This document shows, in pieces, positions 2,745 to 44,087 of a stretch of 64,000 nt of DNA. The notes under the pieces were generated by a model that did not search any database, was not told where the DNA came from, and worked only from the letters and a program-made list of their open reading frames with translations. Source of the DNA: Psychrosphaera sp. F3M07. GTDB taxonomy: Bacteria; Pseudomonadota; Gammaproteobacteria; Enterobacterales; Alteromonadaceae. Position 1 is the stretch's first letter. Every line of letters begins with the position of its first letter. The position numbers and the translations under genes were made by a program. The DNA lies in assembly GCF_018860345.1 (NCBI RefSeq), contig NZ_JAHKPJ010000028.1:1-64000 (forward strand), written 5' to 3'.

Positions 2745-3101
2745 TTATTTTGAAATAGGTTTACGTGGACCTTTACGGGTACGCGCATTAGTTTTAGTGC
2801 GCTGACCGCGTAGAGGAAGACTGCGACGGTGACGTATGCCACGGAAACAACCTAGATCCATTAAACGCTTAATATTCAATGTTACTTCACGGCGAAGATC
2901 ACCTTCTACAGTGTACTTGCCTACTTCTTCACGTAATTTATCCAAATCTTCTTCAGATAAAGTTCCGATTTTCGTATCTTCTGCGATACCGGTTGCTGCA
3001 CAAATAGCTTGTGAGCGTGTTTTACCGATGCCGTAAATCGCTGTAAGTGCGATTACAGAATGTTTACGATCGGAAATGTTAATGCCAGCGATACGGGCCA
3101 C
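2745..3101 (-). CDS. rpsM: 30S ribosomal protein S13
   Basis: Small-subunit head protein contacting the 50S subunit and P-site tRNA. From the chosen start the protein reads [10 protein letters not shown] and is 118 residues, the E. coli length, ending in the basic [12 protein letters not shown] tail. Two in-frame GTG codons are present, at 3107 and 3101. AGGAG at 3110-3114 lies eight bases from the 3101 GTG and only two from the 3107 GTG, and family alignments favour the shorter form, so I chose 3101. There is no ATG option. It is first in the alpha operon. Confidence 0.96.
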
Positions 3102-3165
3102 TAACACATCTCCTATAGTTATGGGTCAGTCGAAAAGCCCGTTAGGATACTCGACCTCTGACCGA
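3102..3165 (-). promoter_or_regulatory. Alpha operon leader, candidate S4 repressor site
   Basis: Between rpmJ and rpsM the minus-strand RNA can fold GGTCAG (3158-3163) with CTGACC (3124-3129), with inner TCGA/TCGA pairing, just upstream of the rpsM ribosome-binding site. In E. coli the rpsM leader forms a pseudoknot bound by S4 that traps the initiating ribosome. Position and stem resemble that element. The pseudoknot itself was not worked out here. Confidence 0.6.
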
Positions 3166-3175
3166 TTGTAAATAA

Positions 3176-27475: not shown

Positions 27476-30283
27476 ATGACTACTGATCGCATTTCAGACC
27501 CTAATTTGCCTTTAATTTTAGTTGATGGTTCTTCGTACTTATTTCGTGCTTATCATTCACCTCCACATTTAACTAATTCTCGTGGCGAATCAACCGGTGC
27601 TATCTATGGCGTGATCAACATGCTTAAAAGTTTAGTTAGACAGTACTCACCTCAACAAATGATAGTTATATTTGATGCTAAAGGTCCAACATTTAGAAAT
27701 GATATGTATGCTGAATACAAAGCAAACAGACCGCCAATGCCTGATGATCTTAGATATCAAATAGAACCTTTACATAAAATAATTGAAGCTATGGGGTTAC
27801 CCATTATCGCTATTGAAGGCGTTGAAGCCGATGACGTCATTGGAACCATTGCTCACGAACAATCTCAATTAGGCAATAAAGTATTGATCAGTACGGGCGA
27901 CAAGGACATGGCACAACTTGTTAACGAACATGTCACGCTTATTAATACCATGACAAATACAATCTTGACCCCTGAAGGGGTTGAGACCAAATTTGGTGTT
28001 AAACCAGAATTAATCATAGATTACTTGGCATTAATGGGTGATAAGGTAGACAACATCCCGGGGATTCCTGGCGTTGGTGAAAAAACTGCCGTGGCCCTTA
28101 TCCAAGGATTAGGCAGTATCAAAAACATCTATCAGCATATCGATGATGTCGCTGCATTAGGGTTCCGGGGCTCAAAGACAATGCCGACTAAGCTTATTGA
28201 TAATAAAGAGCAACTAGAGCTTTCTTATCAACTTGCCACCATTAAACTCGATGTTGATCACGGTATTTCTGCTGACAACATGTTTATACAGTCGCCAAAT
28301 AAAGAAAAACTAGCTGAGTTATATAAAGAGTGTGAATTCAAGCGTTGGTTAGCCGAAGTTCTTGCTGGTAATGATAACTCTGAGCCACCTTTGGTTGGTT
28401 CTATTAAAAAACCTGAACCAAGTGAACAAGACGCACCTCAAATCAATGCCCCAACGATTGATAAAAGTTTATACCAAACCATTTTCACTTTGCCTCAATG
28501 GCAATCCATCCTAGATGAAGTTAGTCAGGCTAAATTAATAGCTTTTGATACCGAAACCACATCTATAGATTACATGGACGCCGAACTTGTTGGTCTATCA
28601 ATAGCTTATGAATTCAACGATGATATCAAAGCGATTTATGTCCCCCTAGCACATGACTATGAAGGCGCGCCTTCACAAATAACGTTAGAAGAGATCACCC
28701 CTAGTTTACAAACATTATTGGCAAATGATTCCATCCATAAAGTAGGTCAAAACCTTAAATATGATATCAACGTTCTCGCAAAATATAACTTAGTTATTAA
28801 TGGCGTAGTCGGTGACACTATGTTGCAGTCTTATGTGTTTAATAGTACCGCGACAAAACATAATATGGACAGCTTAGCGTTAAAGTATCTTGGCCATAGT
28901 TGCATTTCTTTTGAAGATATTGCTGGCAAAGGAGCCAAGCAATTAACCTTTAATCAAATTCCCATTGAAACTGCCGCTCCATATGCCGCAGAAGATGCGG
29001 ATATAACGTTAAGGTTATTCAAATTCTTTAATGAAAAACTCCAACACATTTCGCCTTTGAATGAGTTAATGAAAAACATTGAATTACCTTTAATGCCAAT
29101 TTTATCTCATATCGAACACAACGGTGTATTAATTGATGCAGACCAAATGCATGCATTAAGCAGTGAGTTTTCACTTAAACTAGAACAGTTAGAACAAAAA
29201 GCACATGAAATTGCAGGTGAAGCGTTTAACTTAGCTTCACCAAAACAACTGCAAGTTATTCTATTTGAAAAGTTAGAGCTGCCAGTTATTAAGAAAACAC
29301 CAAAAGGTGCACCTTCCACAGCTGAAGAAGTGTTATTGGAACTTTCTCATGATTACGACTTGCCAAAAGTTATTATGGAATTTAGAGGGTTAAGTAAACT
29401 CAAATCAACATATACCGACAAATTACCATTAATGATAAAACCAGCTACAGGCCGTGTACATACGTCTTATCATCAAGCTATTGCGGCGACCGGAAGGCTG
29501 AGTTCAACTGATCCTAATTTACAAAATATACCGATTAGAAATGAAAACGGCCGTCGTATTAGAGAAGCTTTTGTTGCCCCAGCAAATACCAAAATCGTTG
29601 CTATTGATTACTCTCAAATTGAACTGAGGATCATGGCGCATCTAAGCAACGACCAAGGCCTATTAACGGCGTTTGCTAATAACTTAGATATTCACAAAAC
29701 GACCGCTTCAGAAGTGTTTTCAACACCGTTTTATGACGTCACAACTGAACAACGACGAGCAGCTAAAGCCGTTAACTTTGGCTTAATTTACGGAATGTCT
29801 GCATTTGGTTTAGCACGCCAATTAGGCATCAAACGTGGTGAAGCACAATCATACATAGATAAATACTTTGAAAAATTCCCTGGTGTATTAACGTATATGG
29901 AAACCACTCGGGTTAATGCTGAAAAACAAGGGTATGTAGAAACTTTGTTTGGTCGACGTTTATATTTACCAGATATCACAGCTCGTAACGTACCTCGTAG
30001 AAAAGCTGCGGAACGTGCAGCAATTAATGCGCCTATGCAAGGTACCGCAGCAGACATCATAAAAATGGCAATGATTAACGTTTATCAATGGTTAACGACG
30101 AATAATATCGCCGGGGTGAAACTTGTCATGCAAGTTCACGATGAATTAGTTTTTGAAATTAATCAGGATCTAGTAGAACAATATTTACCAATCTTAACTG
30201 ACCTAATGCAAAGCGCAGCAAGTTTGAATGTGCCATTAATTGCAGACTCAGGTATTGGTAATAATTGGGACCAAGCACATTAA
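27476..30283 (+). CDS. polA: DNA polymerase I
   Basis: Repair and Okazaki-fragment polymerase, 935 residues (E. coli 928). The 5'-3' exonuclease domain (1-300) has LILVDGSSYLFRAYHS, VEADDVIGT and DKVDNIPGIPGVGEKTA. The proofreading domain (about 340-520) keeps its acidic residues (AFDTETTSID, GQNLKYDINV, YAAEDADITLRLF), so 3'-5' exonuclease activity should be intact. The polymerase domain has SSTDPNLQNIPIR, DYSQIELRIMAH, RRAAKAVNFGLIYG and the catalytic VHDELVFE. The ATG has a weak GGA upstream. It is followed by a terminator and a small RNA candidate, as in E. coli. Confidence 0.98.
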   Translation: MTTDRISDPNLPLILVDGSSYLFRAYHSPPHLTNSRGESTGAIYGVINMLKSLVRQYSPQQMIVIFDAKGPTFRNDMYAEYKANRPPMPDDLRYQIEPLHKIIEAMGLPIIAIEGVEADDVIGTIAHEQSQLGNKVLISTGDKDMAQLVNEHVTLINTMTNTILTPEGVETKFGVKPELIIDYLALMGDKVDNIPGIPGVGEKTAVALIQGLGSIKNIYQHIDDVAALGFRGSKTMPTKLIDNKEQLELSYQLATIKLDVDHGISADNMFIQSPNKEKLAELYKECEFKRWLAEVLAGNDNSEPPLVGSIKKPEPSEQDAPQINAPTIDKSLYQTIFTLPQWQSILDEVSQAKLIAFDTETTSIDYMDAELVGLSIAYEFNDDIKAIYVPLAHDYEGAPSQITLEEITPSLQTLLANDSIHKVGQNLKYDINVLAKYNLVINGVVGDTMLQSYVFNSTATKHNMDSLALKYLGHSCISFEDIAGKGAKQLTFNQIPIETAAPYAAEDADITLRLFKFFNEKLQHISPLNELMKNIELPLMPILSHIEHNGVLIDADQMHALSSEFSLKLEQLEQKAHEIAGEAFNLASPKQLQVILFEKLELPVIKKTPKGAPSTAEEVLLELSHDYDLPKVIMEFRGLSKLKSTYTDKLPLMIKPATGRVHTSYHQAIAATGRLSSTDPNLQNIPIRNENGRRIREAFVAPANTKIVAIDYSQIELRIMAHLSNDQGLLTAFANNLDIHKTTASEVFSTPFYDVTTEQRRAAKAVNFGLIYGMSAFGLARQLGIKRGEAQSYIDKYFEKFPGVLTYMETTRVNAEKQGYVETLFGRRLYLPDITARNVPRRKAAERAAINAPMQGTAADIIKMAMINVYQWLTTNNIAGVKLVMQVHDELVFEINQDLVEQYLPILTDLMQSAASLNVPLIADSGIGNNWDQAH

Positions 30284-30770: not shown

Positions 30771-31415
30771 TTAAAGCTCAGAATCTTCAGGTACAGGAGG
30801 GATTAACTCTTCAGCATCAAACCAAAGGTCTAACTTTTTAGATAACTGTGGGATCCCCAGCTTTTTCAAAGAAGAAAAAGTTTCAACGGATACATCACCA
30901 TTGAACTCTTTTGCCATCTCTTTAATTCGTAATAACTCAGATTTACGTTTGCCCGATTTGTATTTATCCGCTTTCGTCAATAAAGCCAAAACAGGTAGAT
31001 CAACTTCAACCGCCCAATGGATAAGGTCTTTGTCCAAGTCTTTCATCGGATGGCGAATATCCATTAAAACAATTAACCCTTTTAAACAGTTACGTTTTTG
31101 TAGGTATTCAGTAAGGGATTTTTGCCATTTTAATTTCATCGCTAAAGGCACTTTAGCAAAGCCATATCCTGGTAAATCTATCAAACGACGTTCATTGCCC
31201 ACATCAAACACATTAATTAATTGTGTTCGCCCAGGCGTTTTACTGGTTCTGGCTAATCCAGTTTGATCGGTTAATGTATTTAACGCACTTGATTTGCCCG
31301 CATTTGATCGACCAGCAAACGCAACTTCGTATCCTGAATCGATTGGCAAGCGGCGAATATCAGGCGCCGACGTTAAAAAAGACGCTTTGGTATAGTTAAT
31401 AATTGATTTAGACAC
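30771..31415 (-). CDS. engB: Ribosome biogenesis GTPase EngB (YihA/YsxC)
   Basis: Essential GTPase acting in 50S subunit assembly. The 214 residues have the G1 loop GRSNAGKSS (about 35-43), G2 region [11 protein letters not shown]3 [11 protein letters not shown]4 LTKADK and G5-like SVETFSS. The start is a GTG with AGAGGAA five bases upstream; the nearby ATG is out of frame. It is convergent with the small RNA and polA, the same neighbourhood as in E. coli. Confidence 0.96.
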
Positions 31416-31594: not shown

Positions 31595-32221
31595 ATGAGA
31601 AATATTGCATTTACACTTACCATGTTAGTTGGACTCATTGGTTCAGCTCAAGCAACTGAAGGAAATGCCGAAGCCGGTAAAACAAAATCTGCTACTTGTG
31701 CTGCTTGTCATGGCGCCGACGGTAATGCAGCTGTCGCTATTTATCCCAAAATTGCTGGCCAACATGCCGGATACATATATAAGCAGTTAAAAGAATTTAA
31801 ATTAGGCATGACCTCTAGTGGTAAAGAAGGACGTTATGACCCTGTCATGAGCGGAATGGCAGCACCTTTGTCAGATCAAGATATGAAAGATGTGGCTGCT
31901 TACTTTGCATCTCAAACTATGAGCTCAGGTAGTACACCAGAAGATGTCGTTGAAGTTGGTCAAGACTTATACCGCGGCGGCGATATGGAGCGTGGAATTC
32001 CAGCTTGTTTAGCATGTCATGGTCCTAGAGGTGTTGGACACAGCCTTGCGGGCTTTCCAAAAATTTCTTTTCAACACCCTGACTATATTAAAGCTCAACT
32101 TGAAAAATTCAGAGATGGCACTAGAACTAACGACATGAATGGTATGATGCGTGACATTGCTGTTAAATTAACAGATAAAGACATCGAGATATTATCTAAA
32201 TACATGTCTGGACTTCACTAG
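31595..32221 (+). CDS. Dihaem cytochrome c4
   Basis: Periplasmic or membrane-attached dihaem electron carrier, 208 residues with a signal peptide (1-20, cut AQA-T). Two c-type haem sites, CAACH (about 35-39) and CLACH (about 132-136), lie in two tandem domains of about 90 residues, each with a distal methionine in SGMAAPLSD and NGMMRDIA. In related bacteria cytochrome c4 feeds cbb3 oxidase. It is divergent from engB, monocistronic, with a clear terminator 24 bases after the stop. Confidence 0.95.
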   Translation: MRNIAFTLTMLVGLIGSAQATEGNAEAGKTKSATCAACHGADGNAAVAIYPKIAGQHAGYIYKQLKEFKLGMTSSGKEGRYDPVMSGMAAPLSDQDMKDVAAYFASQTMSSGSTPEDVVEVGQDLYRGGDMERGIPACLACHGPRGVGHSLAGFPKISFQHPDYIKAQLEKFRDGTRTNDMNGMMRDIAVKLTDKDIEILSKYMSGLH

Positions 32222-32245: not shown

Positions 32246-32274
32246 AAAAAAAGCGTCCTTTTGACGCTTTTTTT
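32246..32274 (+). terminator. Terminator of cytochrome c4
   Basis: A perfect stem AAAAAAAGCGTC / GACGCTTTTTTT with a five-base loop, directly after the cytochrome c4 gene. Confidence 0.92.
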
Positions 32275-32334
32275 ATATCGATTAATTGTAATCCATTAAC
32301 CAATACATTTTGTGAGATATTAACCATTACTTTA

Positions 32335-32352
32335 TGTAAGTCATTGCTGATA
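32335..32352 (+). promoter_or_regulatory. Candidate GacA/UvrY upstream box
   Basis: TGTAAG, six bases, then CTGATA: a perfect left half and a four-of-six right half against the GacA/UvrY box (TGTAAG-N6-CTTACA). It lies about 140 bases upstream of the proposed CsrB-like RNA start, a distance seen for such activating sites in other gammaproteobacteria. Confidence 0.45.
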
Positions 32353-32440
32353 AAAATAATCGTATATTAATTAACCTTATGTAAAACAACAATATTTTGT
32401 ATTTTTTATGATCAAGATGTAAAAAAAAGTAAATATTTAC

Positions 32441-32468
32441 TTGTGACTTTTATCAATAAGAGTACATT
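32441..32468 (+). promoter_or_regulatory. Promoter candidate of the CsrB-like RNA
   Basis: TTGTGA (32441-32446) and TACATT (32463-32468) are 16 bases apart, giving a start near 32475. This is a moderate match to sigma-70. Confidence 0.45.
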
Positions 32469-32474
32469 AACCTC

Positions 32475-32772
32475 CGTTACCACGTAGCAAATAAAAATAT
32501 GGATGCGACTCAAGGAAGTGGGTGTGGATACTAACTAGCGGAGTATTGTATGGGCTCCCAAGGAAGAACTAATAAAGTGTCAAGATGACCAATAATTAAT
32601 AAAGACATATACGGATATTAAATAAAAATAAAACGGATTATTAAATGAGTGACTAGACAAGGTTGTCATGCGTTCGGAAGGAATAATCGAAGTTAAATAG
32701 AAGAGGTGTCAAACTCAGTTTGAACACAATCACAAATTCAAGGCGATAGTTGTCACACTGTCGCCTTTTTTA
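32475..32772 (+). ncRNA. csrB: CsrB/CsrC-family regulatory RNA candidate
   Basis: About 300 bases with no reading frame, nine GGA motifs (32501, 32514, 32526, 32540, 32562, 32613, 32635, 32676, 32680), and a good terminator (GGCGATAG / CTGTCGCC, 32742-32765, then six T). Repeated GGA in loops is how CsrB, CsrC and RsmZ RNAs sequester the translational regulator CsrA. The gene lies directly upstream of yihI, where E. coli has csrC (engB - csrC - yihI). Promoter-like and GacA-box-like sites precede it. The exact ends are inferred. Confidence 0.8.
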
Positions 32773-32845
32773 TTGCCTGTTATTCCATAAATACAATTTC
32801 TTCAGTAAACTCACATTAACTAAATACCCATATGTCGGATAAATA

Positions 32846-33403
32846 ATGACACGCCAGAAAAAAAGCAGAAAAGTAGCTGAGATAAGAGTTAAGAGTAAAG
32901 ATACTCGCTCTGAAAAGCCTACTCAAAATCGTCGTAAAAAAACACCCAAAGGCCAAAAATCAGGAACTAGAAATAGTCTAGTTGAAGAAAGTAAAGTTCA
33001 TATTGCAGGCACTACGACTAAAAAAGATCCAAAACACGGCAGCAAAAAACCAATACCGCTTACAGGCGAAGTTAAAAAAGATCTTGTTGAAAAAGAAATC
33101 AAGCATTCGACAAATCAACCTTCTGCAAAATTAAACAAAGCAAAAATGGATGTTATACCACCGGACGTTGAATTAACGGATATTGAATCTGATGAAATGT
33201 TAATCGGTTTAGTTGAACGAGTTGAAGACGGTGAATTACTGACAGGTAAAGAAGCTAAATACTTTAATAAGCTAATGGATCGTCATGCTGAATTACTTAA
33301 AATTCTTGGTGTTGAAGACGACGAAAATGATTTTGACGAAGACGTAGATCCAATTGAAGGCCTTAAGTCTAATCAATGGGATGACTTACTCGACGACAAA
33401 TAG
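32846..33403 (+). CDS. yihI: Der GTPase activator YihI
   Basis: Activator of the ribosome-assembly GTPase Der (EngA). The 185 residues show the YihI pattern: a highly basic, disordered N-terminal half (KKSRKVAEIRVKSK, RRKKTPKGQKSGTRN), the conserved block KKDPKHGSKKPIPL (about 59-72), then an acidic helical half (LTDIESDEMLIGLVERVEDGE) ending in runs of Asp/Glu. The ATG lies about 70 bases after the CsrB-like RNA terminator. The following DUF2489 gene starts 11 bases downstream and is probably co-transcribed. Together with engB it makes this a ribosome-assembly neighbourhood. Confidence 0.92.
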   Translation: MTRQKKSRKVAEIRVKSKDTRSEKPTQNRRKKTPKGQKSGTRNSLVEESKVHIAGTTTKKDPKHGSKKPIPLTGEVKKDLVEKEIKHSTNQPSAKLNKAKMDVIPPDVELTDIESDEMLIGLVERVEDGELLTGKEAKYFNKLMDRHAELLKILGVEDDENDFDEDVDPIEGLKSNQWDDLLDDK

Positions 33404-42141: not shown

Positions 42142-44007
42142 TCAAAAAATGACGTTTAACTTAATATACGGACCATGTATCAAGTCTTGTCGCTGGTAAT
42201 TAATGATCCAACCATCCTCTTCACCTTTCTCTGAATCTTCGGGATCTTGGCTGATATATTCATATTGAAATTTATAACCAGCAAGAATAGAGAGTCCAAG
42301 GCCTTTTAAAGACTTAATCCGACGTTGCCATATATAACCCGCATCCAACACCGCCTTTATATCAATGCTGTTTTTACCATGAACATCACCTTCTGCAGTC
42401 CCCACAGCATCTAACAAAGCTGCTTTACCCGAATGCAAACGCACGACGCCTAAGCCAAACTCACCGCTGACATACCAACGGTTATAATCTGTTTCATAAC
42501 GACTCGCATACCAGCCCTCGTCATAACCAATGACCATACCCAACTTAGACAGCTTAAAGTTTTTATCAAATGCCGATCCAGCAAAACGACGATTGTTATC
42601 AGCAAAACCAACCATACTTGGCGAAGCATAAGTAGAATAATATCCTCCCCAGTAAATCCCCCTTTCCGCCATGACTAAAGCTTGGTAAACCACTCTTTTA
42701 CTATTAAATACATATTGAGACTGTTCTTGTTCGCCTAGTTGATACTTTGCCGTGCCACCAGCATTTAATGACCCGTATACTAACCTTAGGGTATTAGCTC
42801 CGGAGAAAAGACCGTGATAGTCATACTGTACAACAAACTCTTTAACCACTTCTTGCAACACATCATTTTCGAGTGTGTTATCAACTGTTTTTCTGGCCTT
42901 ATTCTGCAACAAACTGACGGCCAATTGACTGTCTCCCCATCGTCCCTGCATATAATACGATGTTAAAACGTTGGTATTCATATCGTACTCAGTTACCGCT
43001 TTTTTCTGCTCTGACGCCTCTACTTTTTGATTTACATGCCAAAACGCAGGTTGGAACCCAGCACCAATCATAAACTCCATCCAACTCGCATTGGCAAACT
43101 CGTGTTGCTCATATTGCATTTGAGTTAACTCAATATTGGTGTATCTAAATTTTTCACGTGTACCACTTGTACTATTTAAGGCACTAAAGGTGACGTCTTT
43201 TTTTGTCATTTCCACATTAGGTTCAAAACCGAAATTGTGTAATTCACTGGCATTAACTTTGCCCACATTGGCTATACCACTGGCCGAAAAGTTATAAGCT
43301 ACTAGCGCTTTATTGTATGCGTTTACCCATTCGTAAAGAGCAGCTGAGAACTGACGATCACCTCTGGAGTTCACGCCTAAAATATTTCCAAAATCACTGT
43401 TTTTATGTAAATTAGTTTGAGCCGTTAACCAGCTCGAATCTGATGATTTAAGACTATTCAAATCGTTTACATGTAACTGATATTCTAATAGTTCTTCATC
43501 ATACTTATTGGCATGTTCACTTATGTAGGCAAAATTTATCACTCCGCCTTGATAGTGATCTATCACCGCGACCTTTACATTGGGGATTAATGAAAATTGG
43601 TAATTTTGATTACCAGAAAAACGGCCCAATACATCAATTGAATTCTCTTTAATGCAAACCACTTCCCCTAGTACCGATATGTCTCTATCTAACCCCGAGC
43701 ACATTTTAGTTGTGCTAAATTTTTTCCGATTCTTTGAACTGTGTAGATAATAATGTGTGACTGTTTTTTTCCCGCGCGAAACCGGTAAAGAGACCAATGC
43801 CCATTCAATATCAGAATAAATAGCACCGATTTGTAATCTTGCTTTGTGGTTATAGTAAAACCGTTGTTCACCTACAATTAACGACTGAGAACAATCTTTT
43901 TTACAATCCTTATTACGCTTTTGTAATTCCACCTTGGCAGTACTAAAGCTTGATATTGTCATTAACCACAACGTGATGAATAGATAAATCCAGTGCTTCA
44001 AAATCAT
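42142..44007 (-). CDS. Unrecognised outer-membrane protein
   Basis: A protein of 621 residues with a signal peptide (1-24) and a C-terminal phenylalanine after alternating aromatic strands (GYKFQYEYIS, HGPYIKLNVIF), typical of an outer-membrane beta-barrel. The mature N-terminus carries an unusual cysteine-rich stretch (about 34-40, CKKDC) that could form disulfides. Many Tyr/Trp-rich strands occur between residues 300 and 600. No family was recognised. It is read away from groES (divergent) and convergent with fxsA. Confidence 0.65.
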   Translation of the reverse strand: MILKHWIYLFITLWLMTISSFSTAKVELQKRNKDCKKDCSQSLIVGEQRFYYNHKARLQIGAIYSDIEWALVSLPVSRGKKTVTHYYLHSSKNRKKFSTTKMCSGLDRDISVLGEVVCIKENSIDVLGRFSGNQNYQFSLIPNVKVAVIDHYQGGVINFAYISEHANKYDEELLEYQLHVNDLNSLKSSDSSWLTAQTNLHKNSDFGNILGVNSRGDRQFSAALYEWVNAYNKALVAYNFSASGIANVGKVNASELHNFGFEPNVEMTKKDVTFSALNSTSGTREKFRYTNIELTQMQYEQHEFANASWMEFMIGAGFQPAFWHVNQKVEASEQKKAVTEYDMNTNVLTSYYMQGRWGDSQLAVSLLQNKARKTVDNTLENDVLQEVVKEFVVQYDYHGLFSGANTLRLVYGSLNAGGTAKYQLGEQEQSQYVFNSKRVVYQALVMAERGIYWGGYYSTYASPSMVGFADNNRRFAGSAFDKNFKLSKLGMVIGYDEGWYASRYETDYNRWYVSGEFGLGVVRLHSGKAALLDAVGTAEGDVHGKNSIDIKAVLDAGYIWQRRIKSLKGLGLSILAGYKFQYEYISQDPEDSEKGEEDGWIINYQRQDLIHGPYIKLNVIF

Positions 44008-44087
44008 TCCTTTTTATATTTAACCTTCTTGGCATGTGCATTAAATAATATTGTCAGCTGCAATCACAACATTTTTTACTTTTATCA

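Follow-up and report, generated by a model that had tools for sequence, protein, structure and literature searches.

In the passages of the Csr literature compared here, csrB and csrC are activated by UvrY, and CsrA binds GGA in loops (PMC7652899); csrC of E. coli sits in the intergenic region 3' of spf (PMC3295665). Within the order Alteromonadales, Csr RNAs with experimental support include CsrB1/B2 of Shewanella (PMC3171408), Pf1 of Pseudoalteromonas (PMC9927453), and Aln1a-c of Alteromonas (PMC5864184). In a CsrA assay done in E. coli, Pf1 has an effect on glycogen, and the matches given by its authors all lie in Pseudoalteromonas (PMC9927453); Aln1a-c were the highest expressed genes of their data set (PMC5864184). 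No Alteromonadales names were found in the text of PMC5568370, and the Csr RNA passages compared do not name the cytochrome c4/yihI locus outside enterics.

The Psychrosphaera RNA considered here has no description among the literature matches listed. Kulkarni, in 2006, reportedly predicted CsrB-type RNAs in many species, and an earlier prediction there is possible.

The window analyzed is a stretch of 64,000 nt from Psychrosphaera sp. F3M07 (NZ_JAHKPJ010000028.1, positions 1 to 64,000). Judged from its sequence, the segment at about 32476-32772 most likely encodes a CsrC-type, CsrA-sequestering small RNA (probability about 0.9). It is a new record of a known kind of RNA and nothing new in principle.

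Gene context

The RNA lies between a cytochrome c4 gene and yihI (Table 1), in an interval where no ORF reaches 60 aa, which, like the terminator, agrees with a non-coding RNA. The window also contains genes for a DUF2489 protein and an acyltransferase, both assigned from Pfam and position. The gene order in E. coli K-12 is yihG - polA - spf - yihA(engB) - csrC - yihI, and the yihA-yihI interval there is without cytochrome c4. The likeness of engB - cytochrome c4 - RNA - yihI to E. coli engB - csrC - yihI, pointed out in the preliminary description, is borne out: the RNA is on the yihI strand, between engB and yihI, the position by which a csrC ortholog is recognized.

The same description regarded the cytochrome c4 gene as an odd insertion between engB and the RNA; it is instead the common state of the group, because engB on the minus strand followed by cytochrome c4 on the plus strand, recognized by motif, lies 5' of yihI in 26 of 33 yihI loci gathered by YihI similarity. 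The closest named loci of this set belong to Psychrosphaera saromensis and an uncultured Psychrosphaera, with YihI 77% identical. Cytochrome c4 adjoins the RNA in seven of eight Psychrosphaera, the exception being one metagenome-assembled genome (L027/L083) with neither EngB nor cytochrome c4 within the flank. Hairpins following cytochrome c4 are also present in several relatives.

On the other side of the RNA, a putative methyltransferase gene, named from sequence, stands before yihI in 14 of 30 mapped loci (L086, L087, L090-L094, L096-L098, L100, L102, L106, and L107); none is found in the flanks of the eight Psychrosphaera loci. Elsewhere in the window, an alpha operon ribosomal-protein leader lies at 3069-3169 on the minus strand (RF00140, 75.8 bits).

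Table 1. Features of the polA-yihI region, in window positions
Feature	Position	Strand	Basis and remarks
polA	27476-30283		Pfam and position
engB/yihA, ribosome-assembly GTPase	30771-31415	-	Pfam MMR_HSR1; named by position as E. coli yihA
Cytochrome c4, two CxxCH haem sites	31595-32221	+	Pfam Cytochrom_C; usual neighbor 5' of the RNA
Terminator-like hairpin AAAAAAGCGTC...GACGCTTTTTT after cytochrome c4	32246-32275	+	Read from sequence
UvrY/GacA-box-like site 1, TGTGAGATATTAACCATT	32311-32328	+	8/12; left half matches, right half degenerate
UvrY/GacA-box-like site 2, TGTAAGTCATTGCTGATA	32335-32352	+	10/12; starts 24 bp after site 1
Putative promoter, -35 TTGTGA, 16 nt, -10 TACATT	32441-32446, 32463-32468	+	Read from sequence
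Predicted CsrC-type small RNA, ~297 nt	32476-32772	+	Estimated start, based on the -10 box and on E. coli csrC
5' hairpin GUUAC/GUAGC	32476-32488	+	Helix 1; double changes in each of the four pairs counted; 91% of cells paired
Nine GGA, candidate CsrA sites	32501, 32514, 32526, 32540, 32562, 32613, 32635, 32676, 32680	+
Central hairpin GUCA-AGA-UGAC	32579-32589	+	Helix 2; paired in 45/45 sequences; 2/3 pairs with double changes
Hairpin GUGUCAAAC/GUUUGAACAC 5' of the terminator	32706-32727	+	Read from sequence and alignment
Intrinsic terminator GGCGATAG...CTGTCGCC and T run	32740-32772	+	Hairpin 32740-32767; helix 3 of the covariation model
yihI, Der GTPase activator	32846-33403	+	Pfam YihI

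GGA motifs

Nine GGA in about 200 gene-free bases had drawn attention to the locus. All nine were located, and no other 200 nt of the plus strand equals them: 32501-32682 is the densest such stretch of that strand in the window, with 19 overlapping 200-nt frames holding nine GGA, all of them covering this cluster. The minus strand reaches at most seven GGA per 200 nt, and the strand opposite 32475-32772 carries one. Compared with dinucleotide shuffles of the single RNA (mean 5.6 GGA; 5 of 200 reach nine), the count is only mildly unusual, so the case for the motifs rests on their conservation.

Together, 45 related RNAs contain 392 GGA, whereas 200 rounds of shuffling give 260 on average and 288 at most; the rows are related and not independent. 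In a MAFFT alignment of 21 RNAs, which is not fitted to the covariance model, the GGA at 32501, 32562, 32613, 32635, and 32680 are invariant (21/21), and those at 32526 and 32540 are poorly conserved. Among trinucleotides seen at least three times, with the terminator left out, GGA is the most conserved over these rows (0.72 vs a mean of 0.30). An RNA with no terminator by the rule used (L005) was added by hand to the set, L036 was left out of the 21-RNA alignment, and for L053 the cytochrome c4 terminator was taken as that of the RNA. Within the alignment of the eight Psychrosphaera, most GGA sites are kept while the sequence between them changes.

The preliminary description held that GGA lying in stems would speak against a Csr RNA. 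The motifs are mostly predicted to be open, the G of GGA having a mean unpaired probability of 0.54 vs 0.31 for other G, with the higher value in 42 of 45 RNAs; in the window RNA itself, however, the GGA at 32540 is predicted to be paired (0.03 unpaired) and that at 32635 mostly so (0.32). Multiple conserved GGA, most of them in predicted loops or single strands, are thus found here as in the Csr/Rsm class.

The block AGACAAGG.UGUCGUGC.UUCGGAAGG at 32655-32682 is nearly invariant within Psychrosphaera. It resembles ACARGG of the CsrA SELEX consensus as given in the part of PMC7652899 compared, but U follows, not A.

Secondary structure and terminator

The clean terminator seen at the end of the GGA stretch consists of a hairpin plus T run (Table 1) and shares its core with the E. 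coli csrC terminator. The hairpin just 5' of it has a counterpart, GUGUC...GACAC, in several relatives. Applied to the 21-RNA alignment, RNAalifold predicts three elements: the hairpin at the 5' end, a hairpin of 3 bp in the center, and the terminator. Double changes occur in 9 of their 19 pairs. When 45 sequences are aligned to the covariance model, 95.8% of cells pair and double changes occur in 16 of 19 pairs; this alignment was fitted to the model and thus leans towards it. The covariation score of the 45 sequences is reached by 0 of 500 shuffles, and controls with slid partners collapse. Taken singly, the sequence folds with ordinary energy (z -0.16 vs shuffles), and by a structure score on its own the RNA would have been discarded.

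In the 21-RNA alignment, the loop of the central hairpin reads AGGA in every one of the 13 rows from outside Psychrosphaera. In Psychrosphaera the loop GGA has been lost (8/8 rows), and the stem is retained by compensatory changes.

Conservation across genomes

A 391-base query spanning the element matches its own genome and all seven other Psychrosphaera at near full length, with 71-91% DNA identity in the others, and the RNA is present even where the spacing between RNA and yihI is larger (L029). Absence from close relatives, the outcome that the preliminary description named as contrary to its proposal, is therefore not what was found. Outside the genus, in 52 genomes, the same query gives only short pieces of 18-53 bases, in 10 of them. 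Among the 33 yihI loci, GGA-dense stretches (8-17 per 250 nt) lie 3' of cytochrome c4 in Alishewanella, Rheinheimera, Arsukibacterium, and Ferrimonas, and Idiomarina-type loci have few GGA (about 3-6 per 250-300 nt). Five Idiomarina-type loci (L051, L052, L054, L055, and L056) carry a GGCGATG...CATCGCC terminator 5' of yihI together with 4-5 GGA per 300 nt; the RNA of this type may have lost most of its CsrA sites.

The covariance model, R1, was searched without regard to position in 118 genomes, including that of the window, and gives matches in 73 of them at E<=1. Many of the weaker matches consist of the terminator alone, which can reach 28.4 bits. Mapping to neighboring genes covers the best 30 matches, eight of which are Psychrosphaera sequences used in the model and 22 of which come from outside the genus and were not in it. 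YihI is found in the flank of 29 of these 30, cytochrome c4 in 27, and at least one of the two in all 30; because the search ignored position, this placement is independent evidence. Ferrimonas matches are intermediate (47-58.5 bits). A weak R1 match within the window at 43887-44042 on the minus strand (19.7 bits) was inspected and set aside.

Relation to Rfam families and E. coli csrC

A check against the Rfam CsrB and CsrC models, suggested in the preliminary description, is negative at threshold: no family is found at the RNA locus at gathering thresholds. With permissive settings, CsrC (RF00084) scores 17.3 bits vs a gathering threshold of 61, with the lowest E-value (0.006) of the 22 matches listed, and CsrB (RF00018, gathering 71 bits) has no match listed at the locus. 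Searches of the whole genome with the CsrC model (E<=10) return two matches elsewhere and do not list the RNA locus; the CsrB model gives a 9.7-bit match elsewhere only.

In the reverse direction, R1 was run on 108 kb of E. coli K-12 DNA and finds csrC as its best match, at 23.1 bits with the next at 12, a score that comes partly from the terminator and lies below the 28.4 bits of terminator-only matches elsewhere; csrB, contained in the same 108 kb, has no R1 match. The alignment of R1 with csrC is colinear over the hairpin, the GGA blocks, and the terminator. We consider it probable that the RNA is the ortholog of E. coli csrC. Since the R1 score is modest and the Rfam CsrC model misses the locus, orthology rests mainly on position, boxes, and the terminator core.

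Upstream boxes and putative promoter

A GacA-box-like site had been noted upstream of the RNA; it is present as site 2, and site 1, unlisted in that note, precedes it (Table 1). Both sites are aligned across the eight Psychrosphaera. The score of the pair in the window is reached by 0.5% of mononucleotide shuffles, and these two degenerate boxes correspond to the upstream UvrY/GacA box of Csr/Rsm RNAs. Box pairs at 21-26 bp spacing were sought in 44 upstream regions and found in 24: seven of eight Psychrosphaera, 10 of 13 Alishewanella/Rheinheimera/Arsukibacterium, six of 22 others (L086-L107), and E. coli csrC (1/1). For each pair found, no more than 1% of mononucleotide shuffles of the region concerned reach its score; the spacing is 22-25 bp in Psychrosphaera, in Alishewanella/Rheinheimera/Arsukibacterium, and in E. 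coli csrC. The pair of L032 overlaps a terminator, and several relatives have perfect UvrY palindromes. Searching the genome strictly for the TGTAAG box with two mismatches gives background levels (158 forward vs 163 control).

Thirteen of the 22 loci L086-L107 lack both a box pair and any single box of 11/12 or better, one of them (L105) being mis-sliced at a contig edge. Eleven loci (L090-L095, L097, L099, L101, L106, and L107) have no UvrY palindrome above 10/12 within 330 nt upstream, the best being 10/12 in L099, which 4.5% of shuffles reach. These 11 were selected because the search had found no box in them, and they have in common a TGTAAA...TTGTAAA direct repeat at -35, followed in most of them by a -10-like GTAT-type box just 3' of the TTGTAAA repeat. 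Their genomes encode a UvrY ortholog (50-61% identity). Tandem distal UvrY-like boxes are retained in Psychrosphaera and Arsukibacterium-type genomes. With no box within 330 nt and a direct repeat at -35, CsrC of the box-less clade may answer to a different signal. It is possible, though we suggest it only tentatively, that the csrC locus is an old CsrA sponge kept vertically across Alteromonadales, with its control rewired between clades.

The promoter-like pair reported earlier is readable in the sequence at 32441-32468 but is absent from the list of a generic promoter scan, which returned seven sites vs a shuffle mean of 6.2. A GTA[AC]ATT -10 region occurs in all eight Psychrosphaera and in 13 of 14 Alishewanella/Rheinheimera/Arsukibacterium loci.

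The Csr system of the genome and a probable second RNA

The genome encodes one CsrA as well as UvrY and BarA (67% and 40% identity to the E. coli proteins), the partners with which Csr/Rsm RNAs operate. A genome scan for TGTRAGN6CTYACA with <=1 mismatch gives 16 sites vs 11 in the reversed control, and one of them is exact. The start of this single exact UvrY box is 191 nt ahead of an intergenic stretch of 357 nt (the start chosen for the stretch being a prediction) that holds 26 GGA and no TCC and has a terminator at its end. The stretch lies outside the window, on contig C24, minus strand (971-1327 of locus L116, within G000:C24:26495-27065). Among the 15 box sites that came with loci, no other exceeds 6 GGA per 250 nt. 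All eight Psychrosphaera, the genome itself included, have matches to the C24 RNA, five of them over part of the query only, and each homolog is accompanied by an exact box and holds 26-30 GGA per 300 nt. The C24 RNA is below Rfam thresholds, with an rsmX match of 30.5 vs 56 bits; from its sequence it appears to be CsrB-like and likely the stronger sponge in the genome. Of the two likely sponges in the genome, the RNA at 32476-32772 is thus the smaller. A CsrB counterpart was also sought at syd, the csrB neighborhood of E. coli, in 50-nt steps over 1.5 kb on each side; this candidate was rejected, as the scan finds at most 6 GGA per 250 nt, overlapping syd itself.

Proposed mechanism and alternative explanations

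The proposal of a CsrB/CsrC-type RNA in the csrC position thus gains support from a conserved RNA with covarying helices, the conservation of GGA, synteny, UvrY-like boxes, and the finding of csrA, barA, and uvrY in the genome. A second GGA-rich locus is present as well. In the mechanism that we infer, phosphorylated UvrY would activate transcription of the RNA via the two tandem upstream boxes. With five or more deeply conserved GGA sites, located in loops and in single strands rich in A, the RNA would bind CsrA dimers and remove them from target mRNAs; CsrA control would be relieved, with a corresponding phenotype. It would act as the weaker of two sponges, beside the CsrB-type RNA of C24 with its 26 GGA.

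Function and descent can be separated. A GGA-bearing sponge might have replaced csrC, or arisen independently at the locus, and would then share CsrC-like function without common descent. This is unlikely: the similarity to E. coli csrC is indeed weak (23.1 bits, and the Rfam CsrC threshold is missed), but the position is common to both, the box pairs are equally spaced and lie at comparable distances (about 165 nt before the proposed start here vs 190 in E. coli), the terminator cores are similar, the GGA blocks are colinear in the model alignment, and Ferrimonas supplies matches of intermediate score. Function itself would differ if the RNA acted by base pairing, alone or in a dual role, with the 3' block AGACAAGG.UGUCGUGC.UUCGGAAGG pairing with mRNAs and GGA secondary. 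The near invariance of this block in the eight Psychrosphaera exceeds what GGA alone would need; outside the genus, however, the block varies while the GGA at 32680 stays, and over 21 rows no trinucleotide is better conserved than GGA, which makes a base-pairing RNA improbable.

Two further explanations would dispense with a free regulatory RNA. A long 5' leader of yihI would also lie upstream of that gene and on its strand, but a conserved intrinsic terminator precedes yihI and the putative methyltransferase gene intervenes in 14 of the 30 mapped loci, so that a leader is highly improbable. Chance clustering of GGA in A-rich spacer DNA could account for the count in the single sequence, which 5 of 200 shuffles reach, and for the ordinary folding energy; set against conservation, covariation, and family-wide recovery, its probability is close to negligible. 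The CsrC-type, CsrA-sequestering RNA remains the preferred reading.

Csr RNAs diverge fast in sequence and are missed as a result; both RNAs of this genome stay below the Rfam thresholds. Synteny combined with a lineage model recovers a Csr RNA from one constant locus across members of a family. This opens a way to study how CsrA controls growth, motility, and biofilm in marine bacteria, as well as evolutionary change of the UvrY input to sponge RNAs.

Comparison with known Csr RNAs

The three groups of Alteromonadales RNAs are compared here as far as the passages of the cited papers describe them. Aln1a-c of Alteromonas macleodii carry A(N)GGA in single strands and are proposed CsrA sponges; they differ in having three start sites, all within a single intergenic region of 404 bp, and are placed by locus tags only, Te101_04650/04655 (PMC5864184). 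Pf1 of Pseudoalteromonas is a CsrB-family RNA with a GacA site, but with 21 GGA it is nearer in GGA number to the C24 RNA (PMC9927453). CsrB1 and CsrB2 of Shewanella are controlled by BarA/UvrY and have TGTAAGN6CTTACA boxes; their loci differ, csrB1/2 lying at SO_1615-1617 and a predicted csrC, which is not UvrY-dependent, between mutM and SO_4727 (PMC3171408).

The closest likeness is to E. coli CsrC (b4457; RF00084), which also lies between engB/yihA and yihI on the same strand. Both have a UvrY-like box pair upstream (spacing 22 bp there vs 24 here), GGA repeats, and a terminator of the form GGCGAYAG...CTGTCGCC. Unlike E. coli csrC, the Psychrosphaera RNA has nine GGA instead of 14, is preceded by cytochrome c4, is more A-rich, and falls below the Rfam threshold. 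Taken together, the two predicted sponge RNAs of the Psychrosphaera genome resemble the CsrB/CsrC pair of E. coli.
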